From assembly GCF_003033925.1 (NCBI RefSeq), contig NZ_CP028365.1, positions 620,001 through 684,000 of the forward strand: a stretch of 64,000 nucleotides of DNA, given 5' to 3'. The translations under genes and the position numbers were made by a program. This stretch comes from Tannerella serpentiformis (lineage in GTDB: Bacteria > Bacteroidota > Bacteroidia > Bacteroidales > Tannerellaceae). The notes beneath the pieces were generated by a model. That model was not told the DNA's origin, made no database searches, and saw nothing but the letters and a program-made list of their open reading frames with translations. The stretch's first letter is position 1. Each line of letters begins with the position of its first letter. Positions 23,873 through 44,990 of this stretch are shown here, piece by piece.

Positions 23873-24008
23873 GGGGGATTGATTTGCATCTCACGCTGTA
23901 GCTGTTACAGTCGGCTGGAGTCCCCATACATCCCCGAGGTGTTGGCCATCAGCCTTAACCGTGGCTGCAAACTTCAATGCAAATATACAACGAAACAGGG
24001 AACAGAAT

Positions 24009-24509
24009 ATGGATATAGATGAGTTCAAGAATTATTTGAAGGCGTTACCGGAAAAGATTTTGAGCACTGCGCCTGCCATTGTGTCAGAGACAGCCGTAGA
24101 GTATTACAAAGAGCGCTTTGCGGTGAAAGGGTTCGATGGATCTCCGTGGATACCAGGCAGACCGAAAAAGAGCGGCTCCCTATTGGTGCAAAGCGGTAAT
24201 CTGATGAATAGTATCCGTCCCGCCTACGTGGGGCCGGATAAGGTCGTCATCTCAGCCGGTAATGCCCAAGTGCCCTACGCACAAGTGCACAATGAGGGGT
24301 TCGAGGGGGATGTGGCTATACAGTCCTACGTGCGCAGCACGAAGGGCAAAGCGAATAAGAAAAAGGTGGATGCCGGCGACGCCCCGGGCACGGTAAAGGC
24401 GCACACGCGTCACATGAATATCCCCAAGCGGCAATTCATGGGCTATTCTCGAGACATGGCCGACCGCATCAAAAAGCGTCTCGATGAGGCCATCGATGGC
24501 ATACTGTAA
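24009..24509 (+). CDS. Mu gpG-like virion morphogenesis protein
   Basis: 166 residues from ATG 24009 (MDIDEFKNYLKALPEKI). FDGSPWIPGRPKKSG and LVQSGNLMNSIRP are typical of the gpG/gp31 virion morphogenesis family, as is the C-terminal PKRQFMGYSRDM. It functions in head or neck completion and follows the portal/F gene as in Mu. Confidence 0.75.
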   Translation: MDIDEFKNYLKALPEKILSTAPAIVSETAVEYYKERFAVKGFDGSPWIPGRPKKSGSLLVQSGNLMNSIRPAYVGPDKVVISAGNAQVPYAQVHNEGFEGDVAIQSYVRSTKGKANKKKVDAGDAPGTVKAHTRHMNIPKRQFMGYSRDMADRIKKRLDEAIDGIL

Positions 24510-25094: not shown

Positions 25095-25103
25095 CGGATT
25101 ATA

Positions 25104-25841
25104 TTTGAGGATTTCCGCTTCTATCTCAAGAAGAAGCGGTTTGCAGCGAAGACGGTTAATCGGCACCTCTGCTGGCTGAGCCGATTGATGTATCGTGCGG
25201 TCAGTAAAAGGATCATTCGCTACAACCCTTTTGAGGATGCCATCTATGAAAAGGATGAGAGGAAGATTCGCTTCTTGCAAAAGAGCGATGTGGCCAAGTT
25301 CATGGCGCTGAAAGTGAACGATAGAGAAGCAGAGCAAGCCCGGCAAATGTTTCTCTTCTCTTGCTTCACCGGACTGGCCATTGCGGATATGGAGCGCCTG
25401 AAGTTCTCTCATATCCAAACGTCGGCCGACGGTAGGAGGTATATCCGCAAGGAAAGGCAGAAGACGGAAGTGGAGTCTATCGTGCCGTTACATCCGATTG
25501 CGGAGGCGATCCTTAGCAGATGCCAAGAAAGAAAGGGTCAGACGATGAAAGAAAAAGGCGAGTGCCTTGTCTTTCCACGCGATTGCAGCCGCAGTACGAT
25601 GAATAACAAACTGAGCACTGTGGGGCTGGCGTGTGGCATCAGACAACGCCTGTCTTTCCACATGGCTCGTCATACGTTCGGGACGTTGTCGCTCAGCGCA
25701 GGCATCCCGATAGAGAGCATCGCCAAGATGATGGGGCACGCGTCCATATCCAGCACTCAGATCTATGCGCAGGTGACGGACAAAAAGATCTCAGAAGACA
25801 TGGACAAGCTGATCCGGAAGCAACAAGCGGCGTCAGAGTGA
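25104..25841 (+). pseudogene. Tyrosine recombinase, 5' half removed by prophage insertion
   Basis: The 245 remaining residues from EDFRFYLKKKRF to the end are nearly identical to residues about 163-404 of the intact recombinase at 44226-45440. The catalytic parts are still present (HMARHTFGTL and the nucleophile Tyr in STQIYAQV), but the core-binding and arm-binding domains are gone. An open frame of 276 codons runs from 25011 in the phage across the junction, so a chimeric product could be made, but it should be inactive as an integrase. Confidence 0.8.
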
Positions 25842-26099
25842 TTCCTGTATGGCTGGCTTAAGGTGAGAATGTAGACTTTTTTCCTTTCATCGATTAGATC
25901 TTACTACATGACTACAACAGGTATAAAGCGATGAAAGAAGCGTGACTGGGGGGGAGTTAGGTGTAGTCAAAAAGCCATACCTTTTCTTGATAAGTGTATT
26001 AAAGTTTTTACACGCACAACTGCTTGATAATGAGTGGTATATTAGGAGCTCTACTATGAGGATTCAATGTTGAATACTGAAAAGAACTTCTAAAAATCA

Positions 26100-26234
26100 G
26101 ACTCTTATATTGATGCAGTTGCTATGGGTAAGAAGATCAAAGGAAGGAAAGAATATATTGTTGTAGATACACTTGAACTTCCCCATAAAACAAAAGAGTT
26201 AGAGCTCAAGTATCTGTCAATGAGTAGACACTGA
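26100..26234 (+). pseudogene. IS5-family transposase remnant
   Basis: A 44-residue frame with GKKIKGRKEYIVVDTLEL, the conserved DDE-region motif of IS5-type transposases, starts without a start codon and ends at TGA. An inverted counterpart lies at 43864-43975. Confidence 0.6.
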
Positions 26235-26340
26235 TCGCTCTACTCACCCAAAGGGAACGAATAGGAAACGAGCGAGATTCTCCTGCTTTCGTTACTTTGC
26301 AGTAGTCGTAAGACATCTCATTTCTCGCCCGCAAAGGACG

Positions 26341-35583: not shown

Positions 35584-36168
35584 ATGACGATAGAAGAACT
35601 ACGGCGCGCCAGATTGGCAGCTAAACAGGAAGCGATGGGCGGCAATGCCGAAACCAAGCGCAAGGCGGAAGTGGAGGCGGAGGCCAAGGTGGAAGAATCG
35701 CTATTCTTTGATCCGCCCGCAGACGGTAAGATGACAGCAGAACAACGGCAGGCCGTCTTGACCGCCAAACTGAAAGAACTGGGCGACTATGGTGTCAAAC
35801 GTCGCACAGTAGAAGAGTCACCCTTCTTTGATCCGCCCGCAGAGATCGAGCTGGAAAGAAGCCCGCTTGATCCTCCTCCGGCGGATGAGCCTAAGGAAGA
35901 AGTCATCTCAGCCGCTCCCGCTTCGGTCCCTCGAAAAGCCAAGAGTCACAAGGAGGATTTAGCCGCATTTCGAGAGACATACCTCCAACCCGCACGCATC
36001 AGTCACCGCAAGGCGGTCTACGTCTCTGACGAGACCCAGCAGAGATTAGACTTCGTTGTCCGCAGGATCGGTCTGCGAGGCGCCAGCATCTCGGGCTATG
36101 TCGAGCGCGTGCTTCGGGAGCATCTCGACGGGTACAAGGACAGCATCGAACTATGGCGGAAGCTCTGA
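35584..36168 (+). CDS. DUF3408 conjugal-transfer-type protein (right-arm copy)
   Basis: 194 residues, nearly identical to 29983-30585 apart from a few substitutions and the loss of two short segments (including one GMG block) in the low-complexity N-terminal region. The C-terminal DUF3408 domain is unchanged. Confidence 0.7.
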   Translation: MTIEELRRARLAAKQEAMGGNAETKRKAEVEAEAKVEESLFFDPPADGKMTAEQRQAVLTAKLKELGDYGVKRRTVEESPFFDPPAEIELERSPLDPPPADEPKEEVISAAPASVPRKAKSHKEDLAAFRETYLQPARISHRKAVYVSDETQQRLDFVVRRIGLRGASISGYVERVLREHLDGYKDSIELWRKL

Positions 36169-36386
36169 ACACATGTACGCTTAGCGTGCAATGCCCTCCC
36201 GAACACTTGCATGTATTGAGTGCAAGTGTTCAGGGTACGGGCACCTCCTATTCTGGGGCCCGGCAAGGTGTATTTTTGTGCCACAAAAACCGTTTTGTGC
36301 TACAAAACGCCTTGCCCCCGGAGCCTTCACTCCGCGGCGGTTCGGCTCCAAAGTCGCCACCTAATCTTATATGAAAAACCAACCCC

Positions 36387-37104: not shown

Positions 37105-37539
37105 TTAAAGATTTTGCTTTTGCTCTTCAAAAATCTTCTCTTCGATATCGTCATTCAGTTTTCGGATATAAAAGAAAGCTCGGGTTAAACTGACCAAAGA
37201 AACAACAATAGCACCAATAAAACAATGAATAGGTCCAACAAAACCACTAGGCAGTCTTTCGATATAAATGCTCAAATAAAACAATACGGGTATAAAGAAA
37301 TCTACTGTGGTTAGCGAGATTTTTTTGTTGATTAGTTTTTTTATCACCTTTCTATATTCGGCATTCTTTATACCAGATGTAGAGAAGGTGATAAGTAGAC
37401 TCATAACAATAGAATATACTATCCCGAGTACCGTAAAAAGCGTATCCGAAATACTCCCTTTTGGAGTATCACTAGCAAAAGCAATACATGCCCCGACAAG
37501 TAAAGATAGCACTATTCTATATATTATACTACGAGTCAT
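37105..37539 (-). CDS. Four-TM membrane protein, RexB-like in size and topology
   Basis: 144 residues with four hydrophobic segments (about 5-22, 33-52, 78-97, 101-122), a basic loop between the second and third, and an acidic C-terminal tail. The start overlaps the stop of the preceding 315-residue gene by four bases. Lambda RexB is also 144 residues with four membrane helices and acts as an ion channel in phage exclusion. The resemblance is in length, topology and gene order with only scattered identities, so this is a hypothesis. AT-rich, unlike the chromosome. Confidence 0.55.
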   Translation of the reverse strand: MTRSIIYRIVLSLLVGACIAFASDTPKGSISDTLFTVLGIVYSIVMSLLITFSTSGIKNAEYRKVIKKLINKKISLTTVDFFIPVLFYLSIYIERLPSGFVGPIHCFIGAIVVSLVSLTRAFFYIRKLNDDIEEKIFEEQKQNL

Positions 37540-38483
37540 TCTCTTACTAATTCAGTAATAAAGCGTTCCATTTCATGCATCAGGTTGATTTCATTATATC
37601 TACCAGTTTCAGTCGTATCTACTACTACTTGTTTTTCTCGACGAATTTCTTCTCCTGTTATCTTTCTACCTTGTTTCGTCTCTATATAAAATTCTTTATC
37701 GTCTGATAGCGGATGTGCTATCTGCCCAAGTAGTCGTTCATACTCCTCCTTAGTCATCTCTGCGGGCCTTTTTCGAAATTTAATAATCAAACTCGCTTGT
37801 ATTATATCGTTTTTCATCAACTCTGTAAGGTCGGGATTTTCTCCTAGCAGATGGGAAAGAACATCTTTTGACAATGATTTTATCGTACTCCCAATTCCTC
37901 CTGTTGATGTTCGCAATGAAATTCCATCTCCAATTGATATTTTTTTAATTTTATACAGCGGAAATCCTTCTGGAATCGTCATAACTGGTGTAAAGCTATA
38001 AATTACCCGTCGTTGTTCTTTGACAAGAAAATTAAGGTACGCCTCCACTCTATTCACAGGTAGATTTCCTCTAAGATTGGTAATAAGAAAATCCTTATTA
38101 AGCGCTATGTAATAAAAACTTTTGCAAGTATCAATTCCTTCCGTTCCATCTATGTCCGAGATAGAAAAAGAATCTCTATTATAGAATTCGCTTGGTATCC
38201 CTTGCGTGATATCATTTTTTAGAACCCTCATCACCAAGCCAAACACAAAGCTCTTTTCTGAATTCCATTTAAAGAAAGGCATAACATCTTCTTCGTTCTC
38301 ATTCTGATTAAGTCGCATACTTCGATCTTGAACAATCGATCTTGAGGTTAACACTTGCTGCAATAGGGATATCAGTGCGCTGTCATCTGAAGTTAATTCG
38401 CTAGTCTGACTGATTCTAAATGCTCTTAATTTGACTGATTTTGTATTCATTTTTATGATTTTATCCAATTTGGGATCGTTCAT
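37536..38483 (-). CDS. Cytoplasmic protein of a putative RexAB-like defence pair
   Basis: 315 residues with no signal or membrane segment; alternative start at ATG 38450. By eye it shares the pattern of lambda RexA: an N-terminal domain with KSFVFGL, a strand pair SFYYIALNKDFLI, a FTPVM motif, then DVLSHLLG and a basic SLIIKFRKRPAEM segment aligning with RexA's DILKVLGATD and DIVIKPKFKRD. It follows a restriction-modification gene and overlaps a four-TM protein gene. A DUF4747-like or Kiwa-type protein is an alternative reading. AT-rich, so probably acquired. Confidence 0.5.
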   Translation of the reverse strand: MNDPKLDKIIKMNTKSVKLRAFRISQTSELTSDDSALISLLQQVLTSRSIVQDRSMRLNQNENEEDVMPFFKWNSEKSFVFGLVMRVLKNDITQGIPSEFYNRDSFSISDIDGTEGIDTCKSFYYIALNKDFLITNLRGNLPVNRVEAYLNFLVKEQRRVIYSFTPVMTIPEGFPLYKIKKISIGDGISLRTSTGGIGSTIKSLSKDVLSHLLGENPDLTELMKNDIIQASLIIKFRKRPAEMTKEEYERLLGQIAHPLSDDKEFYIETKQGRKITGEEIRREKQVVVDTTETGRYNEINLMHEMERFITELVRE

Positions 38484-38503
38484 CTTATTTGTCGCCTTTT
38501 TAT

Positions 38504-40246
38504 TTAGAAATTCAACTTAGGCAGAGTTTTCACAATCTTCTGCGTCTCAAGGCTCACGTAGATGATGGAAAGCAATAGATCGAGTATGTTACGTGGCTTG
38601 CCATGTTCACGAGACCAGAGATTGGGATCGTTTTTAATACCGCTCTTTTTATCGGTTGTAATGGCGTAGCGCTCCATTACCCATTCGATGGCGCTCTTCC
38701 CATTGACTACGTATTCATAGGCTGCATCGGGAACGCCTTCGATGGTGATACGGGCATTGTAGATAATCGTGCCACGCATGCCCTTGCTAGGAAAACGCAT
38801 CTTCTCCACCGCGTAGTAAGCGTAATCATCCATAGTATCACGCTCTCGCTCTTTCACCTCCACGTCTGCTTCGCAGGCATAGTCTTCATACTTCAAATGC
38901 AAATCAGCTAAGGCACGCCCTGCCTTGCTAAATGCTATAAAGTCTTCCACGCGTTCTATAATCGGGATACGGGGCAATGACTTGCGGAGGTCATCGGCAA
39001 AGCGTTCTCTGTAATCGGGGCTGTGCAGCAATCCGTAAACATAATAGAAGATGTCCTCCCTCGTCAGGTTCTTTGCTCCCGAGAAGCGGCTACGCACCTC
39101 TTTCAAGAACCAATCTGTGATGCCATCTCGCTTTATCCAGCGTTCAGAGCTCTCTTCCCCAAAAAAGTCTTGAGATTGCATCCCCTTGTTTGCTTCATAC
39201 CAATAGAGAGGGAAACATTGGGTATTATATTGGGACTGGTAATCTGCAATTTTGTCTGTTATTAGGCACGAAAAACCTTTTGAACTACCTACACCACTTA
39301 ATGTGATGATCAGGTTGGCTTTGCCTTGTGGATACAGTGAAGAGAAGGTGCCTGGACTTTCGATAAAAGGACGATGATAGTAGAGCTGTTGTTTACAGAA
39401 AGGACGATAGGAGCTCTGTACAAAAGCAGTGGCATCGAAAGAATGCTTTAATTCTTTTCCCAAGTCTCTTTTAAGTGCTCTTGTCCAGCTGATCCTTGTC
39501 TCATCTTCAGAGAATACATTCTTGCCCAGCTGTTCATTATAGAATGCAATCATAGACTGCATATTCTCAGCTACCTGCTCTTTAGAAAAACCAATAACCC
39601 AAGCATCTCGGCTAGATAATACCCCTGTGGCATAAGTTGAGAACACACTCTGTGCGTTTGCGTCAAACTTCTTTGCCGGCGCAAGGGACAGGAGAGTATC
39701 GAAGAGTCCATCACGTTGGTTGATCCAGTCGTTCTTCTCATTGGGTGTTATCGTTGTCCACTCTAAGTATTTATATGACCCTGCTTGACGAATGATGCGC
39801 AGTTTATCCTCACGGCTGAGGTAGTCGCCTATGTCGTGGTAATGTATTTGGCATGCATTTAATCGTTTGCCATCGGGATAGCGTACCAAGATGGTAATGG
39901 CAATAGGCGTGCGGCTACCACTACCAAAGATCTTGCCACCCTCTCTACGAGACAGCTCGCCACTTGTGCGTTGGTTGCCTCGGAGATTGAAGACATAAAT
40001 CTTATCAAACTCCTTTTGCAGGGAGGCACGGAACCCATCGTGGCTGTTGCCGTCTATCCACGCTCCGTTGCTGATGAAAGCGATAACGCTACCCTCTTCG
40101 GGTGAAAGACGGTCGGTAGCCCAGCGAAAGGCTTTGATGTAGCTATCGTAAAGGCCTTTGGAGAGACCTGCCGTTGAGCCATGCTGCATAGGTGTTGGAA
40201 ATGCGTTGGTCGAGAATAGGATAACTTTGGTTTTGGGCATTATCAT
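38504..40246 (-). CDS. Type ISP restriction-modification enzyme, C-terminal part after a frameshift
   Basis: 580 codons that continue the enzyme of 40143-43397 in another frame. Real homology starts at STAGLSKGLYDSYIKAFRW (about residue 24), the segment that directly follows the NPPY motif in type ISP enzymes. It covers the rest of the methyltransferase and the target-recognition region. Removing one C near 40179 restores a single frame of about 1630 codons. The ATG at its start is fortuitous, so this half alone is unlikely to work. Confidence 0.7.
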   Translation of the reverse strand: MIMPKTKVILFSTNAFPTPMQHGSTAGLSKGLYDSYIKAFRWATDRLSPEEGSVIAFISNGAWIDGNSHDGFRASLQKEFDKIYVFNLRGNQRTSGELSRREGGKIFGSGSRTPIAITILVRYPDGKRLNACQIHYHDIGDYLSREDKLRIIRQAGSYKYLEWTTITPNEKNDWINQRDGLFDTLLSLAPAKKFDANAQSVFSTYATGVLSSRDAWVIGFSKEQVAENMQSMIAFYNEQLGKNVFSEDETRISWTRALKRDLGKELKHSFDATAFVQSSYRPFCKQQLYYHRPFIESPGTFSSLYPQGKANLIITLSGVGSSKGFSCLITDKIADYQSQYNTQCFPLYWYEANKGMQSQDFFGEESSERWIKRDGITDWFLKEVRSRFSGAKNLTREDIFYYVYGLLHSPDYRERFADDLRKSLPRIPIIERVEDFIAFSKAGRALADLHLKYEDYACEADVEVKERERDTMDDYAYYAVEKMRFPSKGMRGTIIYNARITIEGVPDAAYEYVVNGKSAIEWVMERYAITTDKKSGIKNDPNLWSREHGKPRNILDLLLSIIYVSLETQKIVKTLPKLNF

Positions 40247-43200
40247 TAGCCGACTTCTGCCCGATAGAATAGGGCGGATTCCCGATAATGACCCGTATTG
40301 GTGTGCTTCGTTGGGACTCTACTGCCTCAGAATTTTCTCGGAAGAACTCTTTGAAGAGGTCACGGTCGTTGTTTTCGCCCAGTTGAAAGGTATCGGTGAG
40401 GCAGAGTCCATCGAAGGGGAGATAGGTTGTCTGAGGGCATTGTTCTTGAAATACGCTTTCGATATTGACATCGGCGATATAGTAAGCCAAGAGGACTATC
40501 TCATTGGCGTGAATCTCAGACGTGTATTTACGCACCATATCCTCAGGGCGAATAAGCCCCGATTGCAAAAGGCGTGTGATGAATGTGCCCGTACCAATAA
40601 AGGGGTCAAGTATGTGCACATGCTCATTTGTTAGGGCAGATCCAAACTCACTCTTCAATACATCGCCAACCGAGTGGATGATAAAGTCAACACATTCAAC
40701 TGGGGTGTACACCGTCCCCAACTTCTCAACCGTTAAAGGGAAGGCTCGCTTAAAGAACTTCTCATAGAGGTTTTTAATGATGGTCTGCTTGCCCTCCAGA
40801 TTATCAATCTTGCCCACATTGATGCGTACCGATTCGTAAAACTTATCAAGCTCTACGAGGTCTTTGTCCACCGCTTCGGTCTCGAGCAGCTCTATCATCC
40901 TCTGCATAGAGGAAGAGATAGAATTGTTACTAACAAATTGATAGTCGGTAAACAAAGCATCGAAGACGGGGCGCGTGATAAGGTGCTGCGCCAACATCTC
41001 GATACATTGCTCCGCATTGACGCCTGGATTGAGGTTCTTCTGAAGAGTCTTCACGAATATCTCAAATTCAGAGGAGAACTTGTCATTGTTACCCAATACA
41101 AGTCGAGAGATACGAGCGATGTACTTCTTGGCAATCTCGCCCACCTCTGCCGCCCAATTCTCCCAATAGAGGCGTTCGCCACACTTCTCTACGAGCTTAG
41201 CATAGATCTGTTCTCGGATCGAGCCAAATTGCAGTTCCAATTGCTTGGCAATCTCTTGGTGAGAAAGTTGTTGTGCGTCTTGATTGTCGTTACCGTCGCC
41301 GGCAAAAGAATGTTGTCCAATACCGATTTGCCCTAAGCCGGGTAGCCCCACAGTCACTTTAGACCCTTTATCTTTGTTTAGAGCGATGGTATTGACATGG
41401 GCATTAAAGTGGTCGTCATGCGAACGGAGGGCATTAAGAATATCCCAGACAGCAGAAAAAGAGGTGCTTTCGTTCAATGCCTCTTCAGGGCTGGTGCCCT
41501 CAGGGACAATAACGGGAATGATGATATAGCCATACTTCTTTTCGTCAACTTGTCCTCGATGAAAAGAACGCATCACACGCCCTACACTTTGCACCACGTC
41601 TACCTGCGAGTTGCGTGCGGAGAGAAAGAGCACGGCATCCAGAGCCGGGACGTCTACACCCTCGGATAGACAGCGCACATTGGTCACAACACGGCACTCT
41701 TGAGGATCATCTGTATCCTCTGCTAACCATGCTAAAGCAGCGTTTCGTTCTATTGCCCCCATACTACCATCTACATGGCGAGCCGAGATATGCACAACGC
41801 CCGTTTGCTCCTCATGTGGCAGACTGTCATTATAGATATCGGAAATCTTTGGCAGTACGGTTGCGATGTTTTTAGAAGTTCCTGGCTCGTTAACACGTCC
41901 TATCTTGTACGTGAAAGCAATGGCGCGGCGCATTAAGCGAGGGTCAGCATCCCAAGTAATTCCCTTATCGCCTAAGATCTTTTTCGATAAGCCGTTGATG
42001 ACTCCGATCAATCGCCCCGTGTCATCGTAGTTCAGCTCTTTGACATGCCGATCTTTGACCTGCTCCATCAGCTTTTCTGGAATCATATCTTCCGAGACCG
42101 TAAGTACCAGCACCTTGTAATCGGTCAAAATACCATTCTGAACAGCGTAGGAGAAATTAACCCGATAGAATTCTTTGCCATAGATAGTTTCGTCATCCAT
42201 AGAGCAAAGGATGCAATCGTTCTTGCTCGCTTTGATCTTGGCATTTTCACCATAGAGGCGAGGCGTAGCCGTCATATACAGGCGCTTCTTACCTTGAATA
42301 AATTCATTGCTGTGAATCTTGGTAAAGTCGCTTTCATCCTTCGTGGAGATTTTCACGCCTGTGGTGCGATGTGCTTCGTCGCAAACGATAAAGTCAAACA
42401 CGCCAAACTCACCGTTCGTATCTTTCAATATGGCGGCCTGTGCTTCGGCCACGATGTCGATACTTTGATAGGTAGAGAATACCACCGTTATGCCATCGTG
42501 TATTTGGTACGCTATGAGTTGTTTGGTGATGAAGCTGGTATTTGTAGAGGCAGGGAGAGCTAGGTCTACGATTGAGTTATCGGATTCATCGTCGTCGTTG
42601 TTACGCTTTATCTTGCGTGAAGCACGACTGTCGGAACAGATGCAAATTGCTTTGATAGGATAAGCGGCATCTGCCATCCAATCATTCAGCGATTGCCCCA
42701 AGAGAGCAATGCTTGGAACGAGGAACAGCACAAGCCCCTTGCCGGAAAGTTCATGCTCGACCATTTTTAGCGACGTAAAAGTCTTCCCTGTACCACAGGC
42801 CATGACCAGCTTTCCACGATCACTACTTTGATAGTGTTCATGGGCCGCTTTTAAGGCTTCCCGCTGATGTTCTCTGAGTTGCTTTTTAGCTGATAAAGCC
42901 TCCCTGCCCTCGATTCCTTGGAACAGTTTCTCCCAATCTACAGAAGAGTGGTCAAGGTCATATAGGTTGACGCGAGATACAGGGGGATTCTGATTCTGAA
43001 TAGCTTCTTCTGCATTACTACCCCAATGATTGGTTGTTGCAATCCACAGGCGATGGGCAAAAGCTGTTTGATGGTGGTTGAAAGTCCGACTCGAGGTTGC
43101 CAAGAAGGAGTCCACGGACGATTTGTCGATTACCGTATCTTCAGCATAACATTTGCACTGGATAGCCCAATAGTCGCCCGAATAAGTTCTTGCGACAAGA

Positions 43201-43397
43201 TCAATTCCAGTATCTGTCCCTCCCAACTCATCGCGAAAAGGAAATTCCTCCCACAGCCAGACGGTCTCAAATAGGCCCGTATATCTCGGGTCTGTTTTGA
43301 GCCATGCACGCATCAAACGCTCGAACCGTATCCCCTTATACTTTTCCGAAAAGGATTCATCTCTGAACTCTTTGAGAATATCATAGATCGTTTTCAT
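40143..43397 (-). CDS. Type ISP restriction-modification enzyme, nuclease/helicase/methyltransferase part (frameshifted)
   Basis: 1084 codons from ATG 43397. Order: Mrr-like nuclease domain (GTDTGIDLVARTYSG then WAIQCKCY, the D-QxK pattern), superfamily 2 helicase with Walker A MACGTGKTF, DEAH box and a late motif QSVGRVMRSFHRG, then the N6-adenine methyltransferase with DPFIGTGTF (SAM motif) and IIGNPPYS (catalytic). The frame breaks just after NTYAAW. Type ISP enzymes are single-chain motors that translocate DNA and cut foreign DNA. A one-base insertion makes the enzyme presumably inactive unless slippage or sequencing error is involved. Confidence 0.8.
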   Translation of the reverse strand: MKTIYDILKEFRDESFSEKYKGIRFERLMRAWLKTDPRYTGLFETVWLWEEFPFRDELGGTDTGIDLVARTYSGDYWAIQCKCYAEDTVIDKSSVDSFLATSSRTFNHHQTAFAHRLWIATTNHWGSNAEEAIQNQNPPVSRVNLYDLDHSSVDWEKLFQGIEGREALSAKKQLREHQREALKAAHEHYQSSDRGKLVMACGTGKTFTSLKMVEHELSGKGLVLFLVPSIALLGQSLNDWMADAAYPIKAICICSDSRASRKIKRNNDDDESDNSIVDLALPASTNTSFITKQLIAYQIHDGITVVFSTYQSIDIVAEAQAAILKDTNGEFGVFDFIVCDEAHRTTGVKISTKDESDFTKIHSNEFIQGKKRLYMTATPRLYGENAKIKASKNDCILCSMDDETIYGKEFYRVNFSYAVQNGILTDYKVLVLTVSEDMIPEKLMEQVKDRHVKELNYDDTGRLIGVINGLSKKILGDKGITWDADPRLMRRAIAFTYKIGRVNEPGTSKNIATVLPKISDIYNDSLPHEEQTGVVHISARHVDGSMGAIERNAALAWLAEDTDDPQECRVVTNVRCLSEGVDVPALDAVLFLSARNSQVDVVQSVGRVMRSFHRGQVDEKKYGYIIIPVIVPEGTSPEEALNESTSFSAVWDILNALRSHDDHFNAHVNTIALNKDKGSKVTVGLPGLGQIGIGQHSFAGDGNDNQDAQQLSHQEIAKQLELQFGSIREQIYAKLVEKCGERLYWENWAAEVGEIAKKYIARISRLVLGNNDKFSSEFEIFVKTLQKNLNPGVNAEQCIEMLAQHLITRPVFDALFTDYQFVSNNSISSSMQRMIELLETEAVDKDLVELDKFYESVRINVGKIDNLEGKQTIIKNLYEKFFKRAFPLTVEKLGTVYTPVECVDFIIHSVGDVLKSEFGSALTNEHVHILDPFIGTGTFITRLLQSGLIRPEDMVRKYTSEIHANEIVLLAYYIADVNIESVFQEQCPQTTYLPFDGLCLTDTFQLGENNDRDLFKEFFRENSEAVESQRSTPIRVIIGNPPYSIGQKSANDNAQNQSYPILDQRISNTYAAWLNGRSLQRPLR

Positions 43398-43605: not shown

Positions 43606-44225
43606 ATGATGTTCCTTCGTTCTAATGATTACATGAGTTCGATGACAAAGATACTTATCTCCAAAATGAGGCGAGATGTGTTTGGCAAAACTGCTTGATG
43701 AGAAAGTAGCACATGCCGAAGATTTAGGCACCTTTGCGGGCGAGAAATGAGATGTCTTATGACTACAGCAAAGAGACGAAAGCAGGAGAATCTCGCTCGT
43801 TTCCTATTCGTTCCCTTTGGGTGAGTAGAGCTATCAGCATCCACTCACTGACAAGCACTTAAATCCTATTCTTTTGTTTTATGGGGAAGTTCAAGTGTAT
43901 CTACAACAATATATTCTTTCCTTCCTTTGATCTTCTTACCCAGAGCAACCGCATCAATATAAGAGCCTGATTTTTAGAGATGCTTTTCAGTATTTAACAT
44001 TGAATTCTTATAGTAGAGTTTCTAGTATTCCGCTCATTATTAGACAGTTGCGTGTGTGAAAACTTTAATACACTTATCAAGAAAAGGTGTGGCTTTTTGA
44101 CTACACCTAACTACTCCCCAGTCACGCTTCTTTCATCGCTTTATACCTGTTGTAGTCATGTAGTAAGATCTATTCGATGAAAGGAAAAAAGTCTACATTC
44201 TCACCTTAAGCCAGCCATACAGGAA
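43606..44225. other. Noncoding part of the right outer arm with IS5 remnant
   Basis: Largely the inverted copy of 25842-26340. A minus-strand frame at about 43864-43975 encodes the same IS5-type transposase piece (GKKIKGRKEYIVVDTLEL) as 26100-26234. No intact gene. Confidence 0.55.
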
Positions 44226-44990
44226 TCACTCTGACGCAGCTTGTTGCTTCTGGATCAGCCTGTCCATGTCTTCCGAAATCTTTTTGTCTGTCACCTGCGC
44301 ATAGATCTGCGTGCTTGTAATGGACGTGTGTCCCATCATCTTAGCGATGCTCTCTATCGGTATGCCTGCACTGAGTGACAACGTCCCGAACGTATGACGA
44401 GCCATGTGGAAAGACAGGCGTTGTCTGATGCCACAGGCCAGCCCCACGGTGCTCAGTTTGTTATTCATTACACTGCGGCTGCAATCGCGTGGAAAGACAA
44501 GGTCGCCATCTTTTTCTTTCACCGCCTGTTCCTCTTCTTCTCGGAGTCTGTTGAGGATAGTCTCCGCGATCGGATGTAACGGCACGACGGATTCTACTTT
44601 CGTCTTCTGCCGTTCTTTTCGGATATACCTCCGGCCATCTGCCGCCGTTTGAATATGCGAAAATTTCAGACGTTCCATATCCGCAATGGCCAAACCTGTG
44701 AAGCAGGAGAAGATGAACATCTGCCGAGCCTGCTCTGCTTCCTTGTCGTTTACTTTCAGCGCCATGAGCTTGGCCACATCACTCTTTTGCAAGAAGCGAA
44801 TCTTCCTCTCTTCCTTTTCATAGATGGCATCCTCAAAAGGGTTGTAGCGAATGATCCTTTTACTGGCCGCACGATACATCAATCGGCTCAGCCAGCAGAG
44901 GTGTCGATTAACCGTCTTCGCTGCAAACCGCTTCTTCTTGAGATAGAAGCGGAACTCCTCAAACATCCCATCTGTAACAGAGCCAATGGG
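43734..44990. repeat. Outer inverted repeat, right arm
   Basis: Inverted counterpart of 25104-26340. In this copy the recombinase gene is complete and continues to 45440. Confidence 0.75.

Follow-up and report, generated by a model that had tools for sequence, protein, structure and literature searches.

Two overlapping genes on the minus strand, here called A and B, follow a type ISP restriction-modification (RM) gene in the window, the 64,000-nucleotide stretch of Tannerella serpentiformis DNA (NZ_CP028365.1, positions 620,001 to 684,000) that was analyzed (Table 1). Their reading frames share 4 bases. Coordinates, strand, and hydropathy all agree with the original prediction of a 315-residue soluble protein followed by a 144-residue protein with four membrane helices; by the Kyte-Doolittle scale, with 19-residue windows and a mean of at least 1.4, no helix is predicted in A and four are predicted in B. 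M12 is an alternative start of A and would coincide with the start of the A protein in Alloprevotella. The pair is AT-rich, as had been claimed, with 34-36% GC (A, 35.7%; B, 33.8%) against 47% in the adjoining restriction gene and 54% in the window. Relatives in Alloprevotella share 71% (A) and 67% (B) identity with the window proteins, and comparison of the two sets of genes gives pN/pS values of 0.156/0.641 for A and 0.204/0.644 for B, which indicate that both genes are under purifying selection. The existence of these relatives, together with the pN/pS values, argues that A and B are not chance open reading frames (ORFs).

Table 1. Positions in the window of the A/B pair and the genes around it
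Feature	Position	Strand	Basis
A, 315-aa soluble protein, candidate sensor	38483-37536	minus	ORF, ATG start, hydropathy
B, 144-aa four-helix membrane protein, candidate effector	37539-37105	minus	ORF, ATG start, hydropathy
Type ISP RM gene, two ORFs by frameshift near 40181	43424-40143, 40246-38504	minus	ORFs, domain matches
Conserved RM-A-B cassette	37105..43367	minus	blastn against Alloprevotella L005
Two tyrosine integrase genes, context only, belonging to the mobile element around the pair	45440-44226, 46686-45457	minus	domain matches

A gap of 20 bp separates the RM gene from A. The two halves of the RM product are 78.6% and 62.0% identical to the intact Alloprevotella protein, and the frameshift that separates them may be an error of the sequencing, a sign of decay, or a product of phase variation. 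Both genes of the pair are intact beside it. The original prediction had placed the pair behind a type ISP RM gene on a mobile island. The RM neighbor and the mobile setting stand, with two tyrosine integrases, a relaxase, and NikA-like genes all within 9 kb of the pair, and the RM gene itself proves to be split. In Alloprevotella sp. oral taxon 473 (locus L005), an intact 1641-aa type ISP RM protein is encoded 40 bases ahead of A and B, which overlap by 4 bases as in the window. Alignment of the window with L005 by blastn yields two pieces, 37105-39221 and 39450-43367, at 71-72% identity. The homology runs from near the start of the RM gene to the last base of the B stop codon, with an unaligned stretch within the RM gene. 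Because it stops at the B stop codon, RM-A-B is the conserved unit, and a terminator scan detected none between the RM gene and A in either genome. What surrounds the cassette differs between the two genomes. By eye, and without a domain search, no integrase was noticed among the ORFs of at least 120 aa in 32 kb around L005.

In a third genome (locus L041), which belongs to the class of the window organism, the pair lies 0.3 kb away from divergently oriented, clustered genes for a UvrD-type helicase, DarT, and ADP-ribosylglycohydrolase; an 85-aa XRE-like ORF, recognized by eye only, lies convergently just past B. On three chromosomes assigned to Bacteroidota, the pair is found downstream of a type ISP RM gene (two loci) or beside other defense-type genes (DarT and ADP-ribosylglycohydrolase, one locus). 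Por secretion tail, DUF3408, and Arm-DNA-bind_5 domains encoded in the window, along with the 71% identity of A to its Alloprevotella relative, accord with this assignment of the window. In a tree of A sequences, the window and Alloprevotella proteins cluster with those of three viral contigs (99/95). Integrases with Arm-DNA-bind_5, a domain typical of Bacteroidota elements, are encoded on two of the three contigs. This grouping and the integrases point to a phage or element of Bacteroidota as the likely, if unproven, donor of the window and Alloprevotella pair.

Several further features of the window were recorded. Two inverted duplications, with copies in opposite orientation, lie around the island. 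One involves an integrase region (25101-26337 and 43731-44966, 90%), and the other a mobilization block (the 29770-33920 region and 33579-36381, 88-99% in pieces), at the center of which are imperfect 42-base tandem repeats (33582-33722). A subtilase with a Por secretion tail (type IX cargo-like) is encoded at 27204-29564, in a low-GC stretch beside the mobilization block, and a Phage_tail_S (phage virion morphogenesis) gene at 23961-24509 suggests a prophage in the first 25 kb.

Curated families leave A and B unexplained. Neither window protein has a meaningful match in Pfam (E up to 1) or NCBIfam. Window A matches PHROG 3482 (E 7e-10); among 33 members of the A family, nine match this PHROG (best E 6.9e-10) and two match PHROG 33638 (5.5e-6), and both PHROGs are without annotated function. 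In PADLOC, at E up to 5, window A matches JetA3 alone (E 0.0014) and window B matches nothing; eight proteins of relatives (five A, three B) have no match at E up to 1, JetA3 included. An identity of A as JetA3 was rejected because the match spans 86 residues and is absent from the eight relatives' proteins. Two candidates named in the original prediction were also dropped. For Kiwa (KwaAB), no Kwa match was obtained for window A and B or for the eight relatives' proteins in PADLOC, a library that we take to include Kwa models. For DUF4747, whose model Pfam presumably includes, none of 21 A proteins gave a match to the family (E up to 0.1).

A tblastn search of 50,697 phage records with A gave two matches, in Escherichia phage PhiR68_2 and Acinetobacter phage TCUAN1, each with 31% identity over 95-96% of window A; B alone retrieved PhiR68_2 from the phage records, at a position adjoining A. 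Profile-guided scans with A yielded three loci in genome contigs and 32, then 48 (overlapping) loci in IMG/VR, with 18 contigs of the second viral scan new relative to the first. A viral scan with the single window A gave no match, and matches were obtained with a three-row alignment as the query. The resulting 55 A loci comprise 53 distinct loci from the profile scans (some of them same-genome duplicates) and the two phage records; clustering at 92% identity leaves 32 non-redundant loci, excluding the window and the phage records. Besides viral contigs, the named relatives come from E. coli, Acinetobacter, Aggregatibacter, Leminorella, and Alloprevotella, so the family is not specific to Bacteroidetes.

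A and B are strictly paired, and no A locus of the 55 was shown to be without B. At 53 of them an adjacent B ORF is present, for which three or four helices are predicted and whose script-chosen start lies between 32 bases before and 1 base after the A stop. At the other two, the contig stops 206 bases past A (L014) or A is broken (L108), and a separate B scan recovered B regions on both contigs (L128, partial, and L123, respectively). The same scan returned 39 loci in total. Eight of these are on contigs not met with A (three nearly identical), and A is directly upstream of B in all eight. Homologues unlinked to the membrane protein, which by the original prediction would refute the Rex-type reading, were thus looked for in both directions and did not appear. 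The profile of the B family has four hydropathy peaks (33 sequences), and the single-sequence hydropathy rule calls only three helices in many B proteins. The loop between TM2 and TM3 carries a mean of 5.5 K+R (33 sequences), as expected for cytosolic ends. At L108 (667-1686, viral contig), A is split into two ORFs and the B region is still present.

The family is rare in genome samples. The window genome itself is the one positive among 100 near relatives and among 295 genomes sampled from its order; two of 392 genomes are positive in the phylum sample, the window genome included, and one of 369, the seed genome, in a class sample around Leminorella. A copy of the pair with at least 99% identity is carried by 42 of 5426 complete E. 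coli genomes. A plasmid search for relatives gave no match.

The phage relatives provide insight into the genetic setting of the pair. PhiR68_2 has the order integrase-exo-bet-gam-B-A-cI-cro-cII-O-P-ren, in which the pair comes directly after cI, the place of rexA-rexB in lambda, and a terminator hairpin starts at the B stop codon. TCUAN1 has a similar layout, in which one small gene separates A from the repressor and several genes separate B from bet. A search model based on eight CI-type repressors detects, no more than 1.5 kb upstream and codirectional with the pair, a cI-like ORF at 19 of the 32 non-redundant loci; for four of these 19, the locus's own repressor, or an apparent duplicate, is in the model. 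Where at least 1 kb of upstream sequence is available, the count is 18 of 27, and the loci without such an ORF are L005, L009, L017, L021, L035, L064, L069, L073, and L074. Pfam analysis of 24 upstream ORFs (of 45) identifies HTH_3 in 15 and Peptidase_S24 in 13, and at L022 an S24/HTH repressor overlaps A.

Intrinsic terminators occur within 120 bases after B at 16 of 32 loci, against 0.04 expected from shuffles of two-base blocks; none was detected at the remaining 16, in the window, or at the Alloprevotella locus. In the interval from the cI-like gene to A, a terminator is found at one of 18 scanned loci, against 0.14 expected, L022 being left out because its genes overlap. The scan detected the lambda terminator after rexB as a control. 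The cI-A-B-terminator arrangement in many phage relatives is that of lambda cI-rexA-rexB. The phage locus looks like a repressor operon carrying two extra genes, and this operon-like place after cI suggests that A and B are expressed during lysogeny, while the lytic genes are silent. The immunity-operon position is not found in the window, where the gene upstream of A encodes the type ISP RM protein.

RexAB has been known for some 70 years, to our knowledge without an established trigger. Lambda RexA and RexB (PF15969, PF15968; 8TWQ) resemble A and B in gene order, codirection, a four-helix partner with a similar hydropathy pattern, and size (279/144 aa, correctly quoted in the original prediction, versus 315/144 aa). 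In phage relatives of A/B, they also resemble them in position between cI and a terminator. They differ in having no reliable sequence similarity to A and B and in spacing: rexA and rexB are 15 bp apart, but at 51 of 53 loci A and B share 4-32 bases, given script-chosen B starts. The same design is reported as defense in lambda, CarolAnn, Sbash, and P. putida (PMC12894663, PMC6426606, PMC6426596). P. putida RexAB (PP_5643/PP_5644, compared by description) is a cytosolic and four-helix membrane pair on a prophage, near a cI-like gene, with a membrane protein that differs in having at least 181 residues (Y181H; PMC12894663). Gordonia phage CarolAnn gp44/gp43 is a pair with a reported four-helix membrane partner, encoded after the repressor; its proteins, of 370 and 178 aa, have no hhalign similarity to A and B. 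Sbash gp30/gp31, compared by description, likewise has a reported four-helix membrane partner. In the described systems, the membrane protein usually acts as effector and its soluble partner as trigger (PMC12894663, PMC11077077, PMC6426606, PMC6426596), and by extension the same roles are inferred for B and A.

Sequence comparison with RexA and RexB yields no reliable similarity. BLAST detects no similarity of RexA/RexB to A/B, and PDB sequence searches give no RexA/RexB signal. The Pfam RexA family, PF15969, matches neither window A (E up to 1) nor any of 21 A members (E up to 0.1), and the RexB family, PF15968, does not match window B, the only B protein scanned (E up to 1). In hhalign, probabilities are 0.1-0.4% for A against RexA and 0.1-0.2% for B against RexB; the same method gives 0.2% for CarolAnn gp44, which is treated as a RexA homologue (PMC11077077), against lambda RexA, and so misses an accepted relative as well. 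Profile tests are mixed. When the A profile is run against 13 RexA ORFs, the divergent RexA L059 scores above 103 unrelated proteins (z 5.5 local, 4.5 glocal) and the other 12 do not. In the reverse direction, the RexA profile places seven of 53 A-family ORFs above all 103 unrelated proteins in local mode and none in glocal mode. Profile-profile comparison of A with RexA gives z -0.4 to 1.5, and comparison of B with RexB against shuffles gives z 1.5 and 0.8 local and -1.4 glocal. A search for lambda-type RexA in 198 genomes from the phylum of the window found no match, and its control was also without a match anywhere, so this negative carries no weight.

The RexA-like pattern followed by eye in the original prediction (FTPVM, DVLSHLLG, SLIIKFRKRP) is not reliably above background. 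A colinear likeness of A to RexA, also drawn by eye from these motifs and a few more, failed shuffle tests and was rejected. At the level of sequence, such motifs are a lead, not evidence. With PF15969 absent from 21 A proteins and hhalign probabilities below 1%, the proposed homology of A to RexA is not supported; what survives of the Rex-type assignment is the two-gene RexAB design beside defense genes. The best reading is that A/B is RexAB-type by architecture (order, sizes, topology, and immunity-operon location in many phage relatives) and not by proven descent.

On this basis, A/B is assigned a probability of about 0.62 of being a RexAB-type abortive-infection pair. That several phages keep the pair right behind a repressor gene, as lambda keeps rexA/rexB, suggests that it is probably a self-sacrifice alarm against other viruses, here attached to a restriction enzyme gene. 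A would be a cytosolic sensor of incoming phage, responding to a phage protein or to a replication/recombination DNA complex. Once triggered, it would contact B, perhaps at the basic loop between helices 2 and 3. B would then open the membrane to ions, and the infecting phage would fail to multiply after the ensuing collapse of energy, an abortive outcome. In the window organism, the pair might, more speculatively, form a second line behind restriction, a fallback for phage DNA that escapes cutting; with the RM gene split in this assembly, A and B may by now operate without it. A more elaborate and unlikely version has a phage exclusion pair captured by a restriction operon as a two-layer "cut, else depolarize" unit, with A tuned to the failure or the DNA products of the enzyme, and with A/B an independently evolved counterpart of RexAB instead of its descendant. 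No phage challenge, depolarization, or toxicity data for any member of the family were found in the open-access literature, and the family is named in no title or abstract among the matches listed from open-access text.

Genes beside cI may serve other functions. Likely co-expression with cI and a small membrane product are features of exclusion genes too, and these features, like the presence of the pair at the viral-contig loci of both IMG/VR scans (32 and 48, overlapping), are compatible with B, alone or with A, blocking DNA entry of related phages instead of aborting infection. Such superinfection exclusion is considered rather improbable, as B is not seen without A, whereas known exclusion proteins usually act singly, and a location behind a host-type RM gene points to an advantage against phages that are unrelated. 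Control of lysogeny, with A as a DNA-binding modulator of the cI/cro switch, B as its membrane anchor, and defense as a side effect, draws on the ability of RexA to bias the lambda switch and on its non-specific DNA binding (PMC11077077). The three chromosomal loci keep the pair beside defense-type genes without a cI-type gene upstream (the XRE-like ORF of L041 lying past B), and this explanation has poor odds.

A reversal of roles, with A as a toxic effector that B keeps at the membrane until a phage infects, is compatible with the two-gene layout and is described for mycobacteriophage Butters gp30/gp31; it stands as one case against four in which the membrane protein is the effector (PMC12894663), and for A/B it ranks between exclusion and lysogeny control in plausibility. 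Least credible, and indeed very improbable, is a toxin-antitoxin stabilizer of the mobile element with B as a holin-like toxin. Two overlapping genes on a mobile island would suit it, as would the weak holin matches of window B in PHROGs (E 0.06-0.08). These matches are within chance, no single PHROG matches more than one of 21 B proteins, and A, at 315 aa, is larger than usual antitoxins.

Five described RexAB-type systems are counted in PMC12894663, and to these the family adds more than 30 non-redundant loci. Given the 42 E. coli genomes with a copy, the Rex mechanism could be studied in a laboratory host side by side with a pair whose sequence shows no recognizable relation to it. Overlapping starts may lead gene callers to skip B, which is open and unannotated in one E. 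coli region (L154, 5007-5456; NZ_AP025214.2, RefSeq) and in TCUAN1 (L003, 5914-6369); its absence from these annotations may explain why the pair was overlooked. In E. coli strain CH4794 (NZ_CM166349.1, 2782993-2785224), the pair is matched as two separate segments, and the annotation places an IS1-like transposase in the gap.
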